Part shown: piece by piece, positions 1,704 to 8,480 of the stretch
Layout of the letters: each line of letters begins with the position of its first letter
Numbering within the stretch: position 1 is the stretch's first letter
Assembly: GCF_003148465.1 (NCBI RefSeq)
Contig: NZ_QGGI01000017.1
Coordinates: 1-64,000 of the forward strand
Length of the DNA stretch: 64,000 bases
From: Oceanotoga teriensis
GTDB lineage: Bacteria; Thermotogota; Thermotogae; Petrotogales; Petrotogaceae
Direction of reading: 5' to 3'
The notes under the pieces: generated by a model
The model's input: only the letters and a program-made list of their open reading frames with translations
Told to the model about the DNA's origin: nothing
Databases searched by the model: none
Made by a program: the position numbers and the translations under genes

Positions 1704-2180
1704 TTATTTTCTTTCATTTTTTATATAAATAAACATATCTTTTTGTGTAAATTTATCAAATTTATTATATTTTTTAATATTTAAATTTAATAGTTTGTTT
1801 ATTACACTTTCTTGCTCAAATTCATTTAAAATAGTATATTTAGTCAAATAGTAATGTATTATTTCATGCGTCAGTGTTATTTCATATATGTTTTTTTCTT
1901 TTAAAATTCTAAAAGGTTGAGTTATTATTATATTTTTTTCAGGAATAAAAAAAGCTGAATAATATGAATAAGGTTTATCAGTTATTTTTGTAAATTCATC
2001 TAAATTATATGCTTCAACTATCAATATTTTTTCTAAATCATAATTTAATTCTTTTAAAAATAAATTTAATTTATCATATTTAATATTTATATCTTCTCCT
2101 AAGACATACGTTTTAGCAGAAAAAATATTTATGTTTAAAATTATAATCATAATTATAGTTATAATCTTTTTTTTATTCAT
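1704..2180 (-). CDS. Small secreted HExxH protein of unknown function (putative zinc metallopeptidase)
   Basis: A 158-residue protein with an N-terminal signal peptide or anchor (lysines, then an isoleucine-rich stretch to about residue 22). Near residue 105 it has LTHEIIHYYL, an HExxH zinc-binding motif in a hydrophobic helix, followed by acidic residues (NEFEQE) about 15 residues on that could give the third zinc ligand as in gluzincins. I cannot name the family. Its ATG overlaps the last 8 bases of the alpha-2-macroglobulin gene upstream, so the two are translationally coupled. It is the last gene of the run before a terminator. Function as a peptidase is inferred from the motif only. Confidence 0.6.
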   Translation of the reverse strand: MNKKKIITIIMIIILNINIFSAKTYVLGEDINIKYDKLNLFLKELNYDLEKILIVEAYNLDEFTKITDKPYSYYSAFFIPEKNIIITQPFRILKEKNIYEITLTHEIIHYYLTKYTILNEFEQESVINKLLNLNIKKYNKFDKFTQKDMFIYIKNERK

Positions 2181-5100
2181 ATATATTTAACTCTAAATCC
2201 AAAGTAGCCCCATAAGTACCTTGCCAATACATATTATATGAATATGATCCAGGAATTGTTATTTTTCCAGGGTGTGTAAATTTTAAATAATAACTGAAAG
2301 TTCCAGAATTATAATAATCTGAAAAAAAGGCTATTTTATCTTTTCTGTATTCAATAGCTGTATACCAATAATTCCACGGCATATACCAATATGAATAAAA
2401 TTTACTGTTTCCCATATCATTTTTTTCTTGGTAATTTTTTAATATTTGTATATTTCCCGGCAAATAATCTTCTGTAATTAAATAATTTGATATATCACTT
2501 TGAATATTTATTTTAATTTTTATTATATCATTTAAATTTATTTTTTTGTCATTTTTATCATATTCGATATAATATTCTCCACGTCCACCTGTATATGTTT
2601 CATTTCCTTCAAACTTTATATTTCCAAATAATTCTAATTTAACATTTTTATCATTTTTCAATATTTTTTCTGCACTTATATTTTGTATCAGTACAAGATT
2701 AGAATCTTTTAATTGATATAATTTGTTTTTTGTGAATATATAAATATTATTATTTAAAGAATCTATATGAATAGCCTCTTCTTCTGTATTTATTTTTAAA
2801 TATTTTTCATCAATAATAATAAATTGATCTTTTTCTTTATTTAATAGATAAACTGGTTTTTTATTATTTATTGTAAAATCTAATATATCTTTTTTATAAC
2901 TTTTTAATGAATCGAAATCCAAATTTACTTCATATATTTTTTCATATGTTTGAATTATTAAAAGTTTATTTTTAATCATAAATTTAATTGGATTTTTAAA
3001 TTCTAAATTTTTTATTTTTAATTTATTATTATTATAATCATAATATATACTATAATTATCATATTTTATTTCTTCTGATAAATTTGATGGTTCCCAATAA
3101 GTATAATCTCCTTTTTCTATTTTATTTTTATAATTATTATATTTAATTATAAAAGGTTTATAATTATCATTTATATTATAAAATGCATCTATAATATTTT
3201 TTTTATTATCATATTCTGTAAAAATTTCATTTCTTTTATATATTTGTTTGTTTAAAATAATTCCTTTATTAGAAGTATTTTTATTTATTTTTATTTCTTT
3301 TTTTATTTCATAAATACCGTCTTTTAAATATGTTTCTGTATTTGCTTTTTTGAATTCTTCATATTCATTATTAAAATCATATACGTCGATTAGAATTTCT
3401 AATAATTTTGCATTTTCTTTTGTAGAAAACCATACTTTACCATATCTATTCATTAATAAATATTTTAAAAGTTTTGTATTATATTTTTCTATTCCATTTT
3501 TATTTAAAGTTTTATATAAAATTGCATTATAATCTATATCTGAATAATAAAAATCTTTATCTTCTATTTTTATATAAGCAAGTTCTTCAGTTTCTTTGAT
3601 TTCATTTAATATATCTTCTATATAACTACCATCATATAATGAAAGATATAATTTATCAAATGTATTTTTAGGATTATAGTTATTATCTATTCCATACAAT
3701 TTTAAAACATAAGATATATATCCATTTTCTATATTATTTTTTAAATAATTTAATCCATCATTTATCATAGTGTCAGATATATAATAATTATTTTCTTTCA
3801 TAACTTTTAAACCTTCTAATACATATGCAGAAAGATTTGGATAGGAATTTTGAGATGTCCCCCACCATCCCCAACCGCCATCATCTCTTTGATATTTATA
3901 AAGGCGTTGAATTGCTTTTGTAACTTTATTATCTAATTCATTGATTTTTATTCCTTTATTCGAAGCAATTATTAAAGGATATGTTGTCGATATAGTTTGT
4001 TCTGAACATGTATATTCATAATTTTCAACATATTTTATTAGATCTTCTATAGTATTATTAATATTTAATTTTCTATAACTTTCGCCATTTTTAACATTAT
4101 ATCCATTTTTAGTGTCTACTATATCTATTACATCATTTTTTAACTCTGTATTTAATATTTCTACAGGTAATTTTACTATATCTCCATCTTTATCATTATA
4201 CATATATTTAAATACTATGTTTGATTTTCCAATCTTTATAGCTTTAACGTTTAATTCTACATCTAATTGAGAATTTGGCTGTATATTTATTTCACCATCT
4301 TTTTTATCTATTATAAAATATTTTTCATCAAATAAATTTTCATATTTTATATTTTTTTCTTCTTTAGTATTATTATATACAATAATATTAATTTTTATAT
4401 TATCATCATTTATAAAATATTTAGGTAATAAAGGTCTTATATAAAAATCAAGATTAGTTTTATAAGTAGTTTCTAATTTATTAAATTTATTTTCTGAGAA
4501 TAAATAAGCGTTTATTATCCACTGAGTCAAATTATCAGGATTTTTAAATTCAATTATATTTTCTCCACTATTTAATTTTATAGATGGTATCCATAATGCA
4601 GTATCTGGGAAATATTCTCTTGTATTATTTTTCATTTCTGAGCTACCCTTATAAGAAGCAAATTTATGTGTTTGTTCAAGTTTTAATTCGGAATAATAAG
4701 GAATATATATATATTCTGTTCTTGAACTTATATTATACGGTGTTGAATATACACTTTTATATATTTGATCAAATATATTTGTATCATTTTTATATATATC
4801 TAATAAAGCTTTATCAATTGTATTTAAAGTTAAATAACTTTCCGTTTCACTATTAATATATATTTTTATATTTTCTTTTGGTTTATATTCTGATTTTTCT
4901 AATTTTATACTTGATTTTAATTTATAGTCATCAAAATTTTTTATTTGTATCGTATCATTCATTCTATATATTTTTCCATTATAAAAAATATATCCATTAA
5001 TATATATATTTTTATCTATAATATTTTCATCTATTTTCACTTTTAATTTATTATTTTTTATGTTTATTTCTTCTAATTTTATCAATTTTTGACCAGCTAT

Positions 5101-6708
5101 ACTTATTAATCCTTCAGCACCATCTTTTATATTGATATCAAAACTTAAAATATTATTTTTATATGATTTGTTAATTATTTCAAATGGTGAATTATATTTT
5201 GAATCGTAAATATAATAATCATATTTTTTTATTTCATTATTTATTTTATATTGCAATTGATAATATCCTTCATCATTAAAAATTAAATTATATGAAAATA
5301 GTCCTTCTGATGTATTTATTTCTTTTTCTTCAAGAATTTTTTTATCTTTTATAATTTTTATTTTAATTTTTTCGTCTATAAGATTATTATTTTTATCTTT
5401 TAATATACCATTTATTTGATATTCTGTATTTGGTATAAATGTTCTATTATTACTTTTAAATTCTAATCTATATATACCATTAAATACTGTCACTTCATAT
5501 TCTTTTTCCATTTGTCTTTGATTTTGATCCATAGTTATTATTTGTATTCTGTAATATGAATCTTGTTCATCGTCTTTAATTTTAACTGGGATTTTTAATA
5601 TTCCTTTTTCATTTGTATAATTTACTCCATTATATACAAGTCTTTCAGAATAATTATATTTATTTGTAGCATATATATAATAAGCAATTTGAGTATTTTT
5701 TACAGGTGTTCCATTATAATATTTCATTCTAACTAAATAATTTATCATATCACCAGAGTAATACTCATTCTTTTCACTTTCTAAATTTATTTCAAATTCT
5801 GGTTTTATATATTCTTGTACATAAAAGCCTTTATATTGTTTTAATTTAGATTTTTTATCTGTTATTTCAATGGTATAATATCCTATTGGTGCAGATTCTG
5901 ATATATAATATGTGTCATTTATTCCATTATAATCATCTATATTTAAATCTTTATCATAAATTTTATTATTCGCCGGATCTATTATTTTTATATTAAATTC
6001 AGAATTATTATTTAAATGATAACTTCCATCAATCGATTGAAATGAATATATATTAAAATTAATATAATTATCTGGTTTATATAAATTTTTATCTAAAATT
6101 AAAATAAAAGGATCATTTATTATTTTTTCTTCATAAGTATAAACATTATTATAAGAGTATTGATTTCCTTTTTTTATGATAATTTTTTTTAAATTTTTAT
6201 AATTTATATTTAATTTTTCATTATTTTTATATTCTCTGCTAATCCCATTTTTATCGATAAGTATTATATCTGTAATTTCTTTGCTTGAAGTTTTTTGATT
6301 ATAATTATATATTATAAGATTATTTTTTACATATGTGTATAAAAAATTTATATCCGATACTTGTATTATTGAATTGGATATTGTTTTATTATTTGAATTT
6401 TTAAATTCAATTACAAATAATCCATAATCATTAAATTTTTCTTTATCTTCTATATTTCCACTTTGATCTAATTTTATATATCTTGAATATTTAAATTCTT
6501 TTTTCAATTCAATTAATGATTTATTTTCCACATAAAATTCTTCAGGATTTGTTATTTGATATACATTCATCATTACATTTTTTTCATCATATCCATAAAT
6601 ACTTATAGAATCTCCTTTGGAAATAACATTATTTCCAGAAGTATAAACATAAGAAAATGATATCAATGATAATAATATTAATAATATTGATAATATCTTT
6701 TTTTTCAT
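2173..6708 (-). CDS. Bacterial alpha-2-macroglobulin family protein with intact thioester
   Basis: Large secreted protein of 1511 residues with an N-terminal signal peptide (hydrophobic to about residue 22, no lipobox cysteine). The thioester motif CSEQ is at residues 901-904, followed by the family's DDGGWGWWG stretch in the thioester domain. The C-terminal domain (about 1362-1511) shows the typical LPG, IEYRKDKIAFF and PGKITIPG pattern. By family knowledge it traps attacking proteases: cleavage of a bait region exposes the thioester. Before the C-terminal domain lies an unusual stretch of about 160 residues (about 1200-1361) with repeated short beta strands. Unlike the enterobacterial homologue it is not beside pbpC; it overlaps a small HExxH protein instead. 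Start at ATG 6708 behind AGGTGG. Confidence 0.9.
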   Translation of the reverse strand: MKKKILSILLILLSLISFSYVYTSGNNVISKGDSISIYGYDEKNVMMNVYQITNPEEFYVENKSLIELKKEFKYSRYIKLDQSGNIEDKEKFNDYGLFVIEFKNSNNKTISNSIIQVSDINFLYTYVKNNLIIYNYNQKTSSKEITDIILIDKNGISREYKNNEKLNINYKNLKKIIIKKGNQYSYNNVYTYEEKIINDPFILILDKNLYKPDNYINFNIYSFQSIDGSYHLNNNSEFNIKIIDPANNKIYDKDLNIDDYNGINDTYYISESAPIGYYTIEITDKKSKLKQYKGFYVQEYIKPEFEINLESEKNEYYSGDMINYLVRMKYYNGTPVKNTQIAYYIYATNKYNYSERLVYNGVNYTNEKGILKIPVKIKDDEQDSYYRIQIITMDQNQRQMEKEYEVTVFNGIYRLEFKSNNRTFIPNTEYQINGILKDKNNNLIDEKIKIKIIKDKKILEEKEINTSEGLFSYNLIFNDEGYYQLQYKINNEIKKYDYYIYDSKYNSPFEIINKSYKNNILSFDINIKDGAEGLISIAGQKLIKLEEINIKNNKLKVKIDENIIDKNIYINGYIFYNGKIYRMNDTIQIKNFDDYKLKSSIKLEKSEYKPKENIKIYINSETESYLTLNTIDKALLDIYKNDTNIFDQIYKSVYSTPYNISSRTEYIYIPYYSELKLEQTHKFASYKGSSEMKNNTREYFPDTALWIPSIKLNSGENIIEFKNPDNLTQWIINAYLFSENKFNKLETTYKTNLDFYIRPLLPKYFINDDNIKINIIVYNNTKEEKNIKYENLFDEKYFIIDKKDGEINIQPNSQLDVELNVKAIKIGKSNIVFKYMYNDKDGDIVKLPVEILNTELKNDVIDIVDTKNGYNVKNGESYRKLNINNTIEDLIKYVENYEYTCSEQTISTTYPLIIASNKGIKINELDNKVTKAIQRLYKYQRDDGGWGWWGTSQNSYPNLSAYVLEGLKVMKENNYYISDTMINDGLNYLKNNIENGYISYVLKLYGIDNNYNPKNTFDKLYLSLYDGSYIEDILNEIKETEELAYIKIEDKDFYYSDIDYNAILYKTLNKNGIEKYNTKLLKYLLMNRYGKVWFSTKENAKLLEILIDVYDFNNEYEEFKKANTETYLKDGIYEIKKEIKINKNTSNKGIILNKQIYKRNEIFTEYDNKKNIIDAFYNINDNYKPFIIKYNNYKNKIEKGDYTYWEPSNLSEEIKYDNYSIYYDYNNNKLKIKNLEFKNPIKFMIKNKLLIIQTYEKIYEVNLDFDSLKSYKKDILDFTINNKKPVYLLNKEKDQFIIIDEKYLKINTEEEAIHIDSLNNNIYIFTKNKLYQLKDSNLVLIQNISAEKILKNDKNVKLELFGNIKFEGNETYTGGRGEYYIEYDKNDKKINLNDIIKIKINIQSDISNYLITEDYLPGNIQILKNYQEKNDMGNSKFYSYWYMPWNYWYTAIEYRKDKIAFFSDYYNSGTFSYYLKFTHPGKITIPGSYSYNMYWQGTYGATLDLELNIYE

Positions 6709-6715
6709 AAGCCAC

Positions 6716-7723
6716 CTACCTAATATAAATTTTATTTTTAAAATTACATAAAAATAAATAATGTTGTATTTTTTTTATCATTTCTTCTTTATCTTTTTTA
6801 TCATATGTTTTTTCATTTTTTTCATTTATATACGGATAATATATTATATCTGAATCTGAAAATTTTCTGATTTTTTTTAAAAAATCTTTTGGCATTCTAA
6901 ATACTCCTAAACTTATATCAGATATTTTATTCAAGTCTAAATTTTCAGAAACTTGTTTTATAAAATTTTTATATATTTCTTCGAAATTATCGACTTTTAA
7001 AATAGGATCTATTGATATTCTTATATCATATCCTTTTGTTTGAAGTGTTTTTATAGCATTTAATCTATTTTGTAAATTAGGAGTCTTTTTTTCATATTTT
7101 TTTATAATTTCTTCTGGTGAAAGTGTCCAGCCTATTATTATTCTATTATTTGGAATTATATTTATTAAATTTTTTATATTTATGCTTTTAGTTCTTATTT
7201 CTATTTTGATTTTATCATTATCTTGTACATATTTTATCCATTTATCTACAAATGGATAAATGTTTTCAAAACTCATTAAATCTGTATCATAAGAAATTGA
7301 TAAATATATTTTTTTATCTTTTGTTATTTCATCTAATTTTTTAAAATAATCTTCTAAATTAACAAACATAACTATATTTGCTGAATCATACATTCCTTGA
7401 AGATAACAGTATTTACAATCAAATAAGCAATTATATATTGAATTCGTATAATAAAAATTTTCATTATCAAAATTTTGACAATAATCAGAGCCTTTATATA
7501 TTAAATTTTCATTTTTAACTGCTAAAATTAAATTTTGAGATAGTTTTTGTTTGTTAAAACTTTGATTTTTTAAAGAAAATATTTCTTTATAATTATTTAT
7601 TCTTATTATTTTAGATTGTTTGAATTTTTTTAATATTTCATTTGTTGATTTATAATTAAAAGCCTTTTCTTCAATATATATATGTGAAAATGTATTTTTA
7701 TATAATTTCTTTTTTGATTTCAT
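6716..7723 (-). CDS. Spore photoproduct lyase-like radical SAM protein
   Basis: Protein of 335 residues with a radical SAM cluster motif of the SPL type, Cx3Cx2C at Cys99, Cys103 and Cys106, followed by YLQG and the family-like stretch IVMFVNLEDYF. Spore photoproduct lyases repair a thymine dimer using a 5'-deoxyadenosyl radical and a later cysteine as hydrogen donor. Here the matching position (SYDTD, about 144-148) has no cysteine, and the only other cysteines are at about 82 and near the C-terminus. It is therefore probably not a true photoproduct lyase of the known mechanism. The ATG overlaps the nucleosidase-like gene upstream by 26 bases. The neighbours show no sporulation genes. Confidence 0.78.
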   Translation of the reverse strand: MKSKKKLYKNTFSHIYIEEKAFNYKSTNEILKKFKQSKIIRINNYKEIFSLKNQSFNKQKLSQNLILAVKNENLIYKGSDYCQNFDNENFYYTNSIYNCLFDCKYCYLQGMYDSANIVMFVNLEDYFKKLDEITKDKKIYLSISYDTDLMSFENIYPFVDKWIKYVQDNDKIKIEIRTKSINIKNLINIIPNNRIIIGWTLSPEEIIKKYEKKTPNLQNRLNAIKTLQTKGYDIRISIDPILKVDNFEEIYKNFIKQVSENLDLNKISDISLGVFRMPKDFLKKIRKFSDSDIIYYPYINEKNEKTYDKKDKEEMIKKIQHYLFLCNFKNKIYIR

Positions 7724-8480
7724 AAAAAAGTTTATTCCTTTCTCTTTTTTCAGATATTTCTGAAGATTTCAATTGTGGTATATTTTTATATTTTAAATAA
7801 TGATATGTTAAAAGATTTTTTAATTCTAATTTTTGATATTTTGTAAATGATGTTTTTTCTACTATTTGTTTTATTTTATCTTTTATATTCTCTATATCTT
7901 CTATTTTTTCATCATTTTTTATAAGAATTTCTATAATTTTTATTATTTTTTCAAAATTATTTATATAATTTTTTTTGATTACTTCATAATCAATTGTTTC
8001 TTCAAGTATGTCAGATATATATTTTATAATAAAAATATTTTCACTTTTATAAAACTTTTTCGCCGATTGATAAAATCCTGAACTTTCCATATCTATCATA
8101 ATAGGATATTTTATTTTTTCTTTCTGAATTCTAGATTTTGTAACTATTTTTCCTTCTAATTCATTTATTTCATAAAATATTTCTGGATAATAATTTTTTT
8201 GAATTTCTTCATCGTATATTTCATTTATTAAATATATTTCATCTTTTTTATATATTTTTGAATTTGAAGTAGCCGCAATTCCAATATTTAATATTTTGTC
8301 ATTTTTATTGTTCTTTAAATAAGCTACTGAAATAGCAGAGTTGATTTTACCAATTCCAGATATTATTAGAGTTATATTTTCATTTTTATATATTTTCATT
8401 TTATCTTCTGTTTTTTTTAAATTATATTTTTTTATTATCGGTAAAGCTTCAAATTTTAAAGCTGTAACTATATATAACAT
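7698..8480 (-). CDS. MTA/SAH nucleosidase-like protein with helical C-terminal extension
   Basis: The first 170 residues or so resemble the phosphorylase/nucleosidase superfamily: an N-terminal TALKFEALPI, the glycine-rich SGIGKINSAIS, and DMESSGFY and ISD segments that match the catalytic Glu, Glu and Asp of MTA/SAH nucleosidase (Pfs). A charged, helical tail of about 90 residues is unlike that enzyme. The likely reaction is cleavage of the glycosidic bond of a 5'-modified adenosine, but substrate choice cannot be read. It overlaps the downstream radical SAM gene by 26 bases, so both proteins are probably made together; see findings. Start at ATG with AGGGA upstream. Confidence 0.65.
   Translation of the reverse strand: MLYIVTALKFEALPIIKKYNLKKTEDKMKIYKNENITLIISGIGKINSAISVAYLKNNKNDKILNIGIAATSNSKIYKKDEIYLINEIYDEEIQKNYYPEIFYEINELEGKIVTKSRIQKEKIKYPIMIDMESSGFYQSAKKFYKSENIFIIKYISDILEETIDYEVIKKNYINNFEKIIKIIEILIKNDEKIEDIENIKDKIKQIVEKTSFTKYQKLELKNLLTYHYLKYKNIPQLKSSEISEKRERNKLFYEIKKEII

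Follow-up and report, generated by a model that had tools for sequence, protein, structure and literature searches.

What does a protein with the fold of spore photoproduct lyase (SPL) do beside a nucleosidase that appears to be its own? In the 64,000-nucleotide stretch of Oceanotoga teriensis DNA analyzed here (the window), a radical SAM (rSAM) protein of the SPL type is encoded next to a protein resembling MTA/SAH nucleosidase (MTAN) (Table 1). The original prediction, made from the letters of the sequence, was that the rSAM protein lacks the hydrogen-donor cysteine of SPL and that the pair may be a SAM-consuming radical enzyme with its own by-product remover. rSAM enzymes produce 5'-deoxyadenosine, which inhibits them and which nucleosidases cleave (PMC6079011).

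Table 1. Features of the rSAM/nucleosidase cassette in the window.
Feature	Position	Strand	Basis
SPL-fold rSAM protein, 335 aa	6716..7723	(-)	PF20903 E=4.4e-21; AlphaFold model
MTAN-like nucleosidase, 260 aa, with helical C-terminal extension	7698..8480	(-)	AlphaFold model; PF01048 in family members
Overlap of the rSAM and nucleosidase genes, 26 bases	7698..7723	(-)	ORF coordinates
CLFDCKYC, Cx3Cx2C cluster motif C99/C103/C106, including Tyr105 (SPL Gt Y96)	7406..7429	(-)	Sequence
SYDTD, Tyr145 at the SPL C140/C141 slot	7280..7294	(-)	phmmer alignment
Cys82, candidate substitute H donor	7478..7480	(-)	Alignment to the donor cysteine of clostridial SPLs (C. acetobutylicum C74)
Glu11 (E. coli MTAN Glu12 position)	8448..8450	(-)	87/88 in family
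Glu132 in DMES (E. coli MTAN Glu174 position)	8085..8087	(-)	87/88 in family
Asp157 (E. coli MTAN Asp197 position)	8010..8012	(-)	83/88 in family

The gene overlap had been predicted correctly, both in its coordinates and in its frames. The longest open reading frames of the two genes also overlap in 76 of the 77 related loci measured. The 26-base overlap suggests translational coupling. Directly downstream of the rSAM gene lies a gene for a 1511-aa alpha-2-macroglobulin-like protein (window 2173-6708, minus strand), which is present in one relative (G004, locus L040) and absent from the other relatives examined.

The rSAM protein matches the Pfam SPL family (PF20903) above its cut-off and Radical_SAM at 5.7e-8, and phmmer aligns it with solved SPLs at 2e-12. 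The six top PDB matches of its AlphaFold model (pLDDT 92.9) are all SPLs, with TM-scores of 0.80-0.84, and the following protein scores 0.51. The model resembles MqnE in generic fold only (TM 0.46). C99, C103, C106 and Y105 are found in 90 of 90 homologues. The intact Cx3Cx2C motif and the SPL type of the protein, both part of the original prediction, are thereby confirmed. Tyr107 (SPL Gt Y98), just after CLFDCKYC, is kept in 82/90 homologues and is Phe in 8/90, including two Petrotogales. The SAM-site lysine is conserved as well (K179, Gt K174). Plain SPL membership is nonetheless rejected, since the protein scores 93.6 bits against the TIGR04070 SPL equivalog, which has a cut-off of 400.

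Has the hydrogen donor been lost? At the SPL C140 slot, the 90 cassette rSAM homologues carry Tyr in 88 cases, Phe in two and Cys in none, and so the absence read from the window is constant in the family. The claim that no cysteine is near holds for the linear sequence but not for the alignment with clostridial SPLs. In C. acetobutylicum SPL, the conserved cysteine C74 projects from the opposite side of the pocket to that of B. subtilis (PMC5368176). Global alignment places Cys82 of the window protein on this clostridial donor cysteine. Independently of it, phmmer places Cys82 opposite C76 of 4rh0, described as a C140A/S76C mutant. One quick alignment shifts Cys82 a few columns off, and the match to the SPL donor is good, not exact by every method. 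Cys82 is kept in 86/90 homologues; the four exceptions form one clade, in which the nucleosidase is still present. Another residue thus probably stands in for the missing Bacillus-type cysteine, with Cys82 the candidate, and outright loss of the donor is rejected given Cys82 and the C74 precedent. A donor-aligned cysteine elsewhere is what the original prediction had named as evidence against itself. One is found in part, by alignment rather than by structure.

The missing C141-type cysteine had also been read as pointing to a SAM-consuming, non-SPL reaction. This reading fails. At the C140 slot, the 17 clostridial SPLs retrieved (scores of about 400-500 bits) carry Ala or Ser without exception. 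Each of them retains the 'C[KR]PSA' cysteine, and C74 is the one employed by the C. acetobutylicum enzyme. Because clostridial SPLs also lack the Bacillus-type cysteine and Cys82 aligns with theirs, its absence is not evidence for SAM consumption. The relay tyrosine bears on some members. A B. subtilis SPL mutant with this tyrosine changed to Phe does not regenerate SAM (PMC3742179). Since Tyr107 corresponds to it, SPL-like regeneration of SAM is not expected in at least the 8/90 members with Phe at 107.

The cassette is a system separate from ordinary SPL, because most Clostridia checked hold an ordinary SPL too. A second full-length PF20903 protein above the cut-off is present in 19 of 27 cassette genomes, 17 times at about 400-500 bits and twice at 223-241. 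In the Petrotogales and two Fusobacterium genomes searched, the cassette rSAM is the sole PF20903 protein. A quick tree without bootstrap groups the cassette rSAMs as one clade against the SPLs (SH-aLRT 100) on a long stem, with the Petrotogales proteins as one clade (96) next to Clostridia. E175, R177 and D/E239 are fixed in cassette rSAMs, where SPLs mostly have R/K, V and A. The C-terminal segment of the window protein is 7 residues shorter than in SPL by global alignment; we tentatively take this segment to be the DNA-probing hairpin of the SPL structure. From the charged residues, the shorter segment, the separate clade and the other SPL in 19/27 genomes, we infer that the substrate probably differs from that of SPL. 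In seven Fusobacteriaceae there is a sister rSAM, distant at about 175-183 bits, and no nucleosidase. The sister proteins of L200, L201, L202 and L206 lack Cys82 and Tyr145, keep the E175/R177 pair, and adjoin a DNA polymerase III delta-like gene (named from its sequence).

Comparative genomics shows the rSAM protein and the nucleosidase to be one functional unit with near-obligate linkage. From 295 rSAM relatives found across 84,980 species genomes, the best 80 loci were picked by rSAM similarity alone. The nucleosidase gene is immediately upstream of the rSAM gene in 80/80 of these. Across 203 genomes of Clostridiales, the order of C. tetanomorphum, an identical set of 45 carries both genes and 158 carry neither (log10 p about -45 for identical sets by chance, with related genomes not independent). 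Among 61 genomes, a close rSAM relative is present in 14, all Petrotogales, and each of the 14 carries the adjacent nucleosidase, and both genes are absent from seven genomes of a genus of the same family (g6). Fusobacteriaceae have a cassette-type rSAM in 19/61 genomes, with a nucleosidase in 17 of the 19 and a remnant in the other two. No nucleosidase neighbors an ordinary SPL gene (0/19 loci, within a flank of about 1.5 kb). Two loci, L136 (662 aa) and L193 of Fusobacterium vincentii (624 aa), have the genes fused into a single open reading frame, and a third, L098, has a partial fusion. As the unfused genes overlap, an error of one base could look like a fusion; the presence of linker sequence beyond both domains speaks against such an error. 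The L193 contig, NZ_CP084075.1 of F. vincentii SB055, is labelled plasmid pSB055A; it is 2.1 Mb long and so probably the chromosome. In three Fusobacteriaceae (L203, L205 and L207), a 218-aa gene is inserted between nucleosidase and rSAM. The coupling of the two genes in the original prediction is thus borne out, and the contrary outcome, no co-occurrence in related genomes, was not seen. Its remark on a lineage not known to sporulate fits the window and not the system, since most carriers found are Clostridia.

The partner was predicted to hold the Glu/Glu/Asp set of MTA/SAH nucleosidase, and Glu11, Glu132 and Asp157 do occupy the MTAN catalytic positions and are conserved. Lys153 stands where E. 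coli MTAN has Arg193. The window protein scores 22.3 bits against PF01048, under the cut-off of 25.1, and a match is seen in 51 of the 57 family members. The window protein also stays below the curated MTAN cut-offs (TIGR01704, 20.7 against 73.8 bits; NF004079, 25.1 against 169). The top PDB matches of its AlphaFold model (pLDDT 92.5) are MTANs (E=1.2e-11), among 556 PDB matches at E<=0.001. Judged by this model, the partner is a diverged version of the MTAN fold, since its query-normalised TM against MTANs is about 0.55-0.6. The L109 nucleosidase scores futalosine hydrolase (9e-10) as well as MTAN (1.8e-7).

Some partners have decayed in place. In L112 the catalytic residues are lost and the gene is still beside rSAM, in L113 the nucleosidase gene is split, and in the Fusobacteriaceae G364 (L198) and G365 (L199) an N-terminally truncated remnant, its N-terminal half gone, adjoins the rSAM gene. 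The catalytically dead partners that stay adjacent in L112, G364 and G365 suggest a physical association of the two proteins, or a structural role beyond catalysis.

Is the partner a housekeeping enzyme? Petrotogaceae, including the window genome, yielded no MTAN above the TIGR01704 cut-off, and the cassette nucleosidase may therefore matter more in the window genome. Ordinary MTAN over the cut-off is encoded elsewhere in 14 of 16 Clostridia/Fusobacteria carriers checked. A housekeeping MTAN moved beside the rSAM gene is possible in Petrotogaceae and generally unlikely given these 14/16. That most Clostridia checked own an ordinary MTAN favors a dedicated role of the partner over a general one.

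The third gene of many loci encodes a short-chain dehydrogenase (SDR) whose YxxxK motif is conserved. It is immediately downstream in 46/80 loci and comes next in most clostridial and fusobacterial cassettes; among the Petrotogales examined, a single one has it beside the cassette. Most loci end at two or three genes, and no additional pathway genes recur in the cassette neighborhoods. The cassette sits after dnaX in most Petrotogales, a neighborhood not found in Clostridia. A SAM hydroxide adenosyltransferase gene (L043:2966-3772; PF01887/PF20257 tested in L043) lies upstream of yigZ-dnaX-nucleosidase-rSAM in the same gene run, as it does in the runs of L040, L041, L045, L047 and L048, all from Petrotogales relatives. 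It was rejected as part of the cassette, being missing at the window position and not beside the cassette in Clostridia. A role of the SDR in EF-P modification was also rejected (YmfI-like score 94-105 bits against a cut-off of 238), as was anti-phage defence, for which PADLOC gave no convincing match.

How might the pair work? The explanation we favor, at a probability of roughly 50%, is that the SPL-fold rSAM protein acts on a substrate that is polar and probably not DNA, and that its own MTAN-like nucleosidase cleaves 5'-deoxyadenosine or a nucleoside product. The rSAM protein would cleave SAM reductively and apply the 5'-deoxyadenosyl radical to a substrate that is probably polar rather than a thymine photoproduct in DNA (step 1). 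Cys82 and/or Tyr145, judging from their positions in the alignment, may relay or return hydrogen (step 2). The nucleosidase would hydrolyse the released 5'-deoxyadenosine, or possibly a nucleoside product, to adenine and sugar, which would pull the reaction forward and remove an inhibitor (step 3). Where present, the SDR could reduce or oxidise the sugar or product (step 4). The predicted by-product remover thus keeps the MTAN catalytic residues, and cleavage of 5'-deoxyadenosine is chemically sensible; by-product removal itself stays an inference. Three observations weigh against this explanation: the ordinary MTAN of 14/16 carriers could already clear 5'-deoxyadenosine, partners that have lost their catalytic residues persist beside the rSAM gene in L112, G364 and G365, and nearly all Petrotogales examined (all but one) lack an adjoining SDR.

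The same linkage can be read as a biosynthetic or salvage step, in which the rSAM protein attaches an adenosyl group to a small molecule or rearranges it, adenine is then taken off the product by the nucleosidase, and the SDR completes the conversion. MqnB acts after MqnE in this order in the futalosine pathway. Such strict one-to-one linkage in hosts with a general MTAN would be expected of a pathway step more than of a housekeeping function, and the SDR as third gene, the futalosine hydrolase score of the L109 nucleosidase and the charged residues new to the cassette rSAM family all agree with it. We consider it possible but rather doubtful, because no further pathway genes recur in loci of mostly two or three genes, the SDR is not adjacent in most Petrotogales, and the likeness to MqnE is that of a generic fold. 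A further reading, offered only tentatively, is that the SPL-derived rSAM protein and the nucleosidase work together as a single machine whose substrate is not DNA (for example adenosylation, then adenine removal, with the SDR completing). This would make the cassette an undescribed two- to three-gene system, in which the SPL fold had moved from repairing DNA into metabolism.

Repair of a photoproduct or other DNA lesion would instead use Cys82 as donor and recycle SAM, with the nucleosidase cleaning up after abortive turnover. The full-length SPL fold of the model, the apparent alignment of Cys82 with the clostridial donor, the mostly kept relay residues Tyr105/Tyr107 and the location after dnaX in most Petrotogales would suit such an enzyme. 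Repair is improbable, however, in view of the other SPL in 19/27 cassette genomes, the shortened C-terminal segment and the residues altered to E175/R177/D239; the dnaX neighborhood is not common to Clostridia, and one clade without Cys82 keeps the gene pair. Lastly, the nucleosidase-like protein could chiefly bind or scaffold the rSAM protein, for substrate recognition or stability, with hydrolase activity secondary. The partners retained without catalytic residues (L112) or without an N-terminal half (G364, G365), the fused genes and the distinctive C-terminal extension are compatible with this role, which we regard as very unlikely given that Glu/Glu/Asp is conserved in about 95% of members.

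What appears to be new is the combination of an SPL-fold rSAM enzyme with an MTAN-like nucleosidase of its own. No NCBIfam equivalog covers the rSAM protein, the nucleosidase or the SDR at its cut-off, and we found no description of the rSAM/nucleosidase pair in the open-licence papers searched. Cells are thought to depend on general nucleosidases for clearing 5'-deoxyadenosine. An rSAM family that is nearly always accompanied by a nucleosidase of its own, with the two occasionally fused, would clearly exemplify dedicated pairing. The pairing would also give a tractable handle on an SPL-like family present in hundreds of anaerobe genomes, where a second enzyme, independent of sporulation, is concealed under the label 'spore photoproduct lyase family'.

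Compared with known systems, the rSAM protein shares with B. subtilis and G. thermodenitrificans SPL (PF20903, TIGR04070) the whole-chain fold, Cx3Cx2C, relay tyrosines and conserved lysine. It differs in the Tyr at the donor slot, the TIGR04070 score, the charged E175/R177/D239, the shorter C-terminal segment and the nucleosidase-like gene partner. Clostridial SPL of the C. acetobutylicum C74 type is alike in lacking the C141-type cysteine and in a donor with which Cys82 aligns, whereas the cassette rSAM forms a separate clade, can share a genome with it and, unlike it, has a nucleosidase neighbor. The partner has the fold and catalytic Glu/Glu/Asp of MTAN/Pfs (TIGR01704) and futalosine hydrolase (TIGR03664), but falls below all curated NCBIfam cut-offs and has a shortened central region and a helical C-terminal extension. 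Clusters for 5-deoxyribose salvage (kinase/isomerase/aldolase; PMC6079011) would clear this by-product of rSAM enzymes as well. The cassette, in contrast, has no kinase, isomerase or aldolase, and its nucleosidase is tied to one specific rSAM protein.
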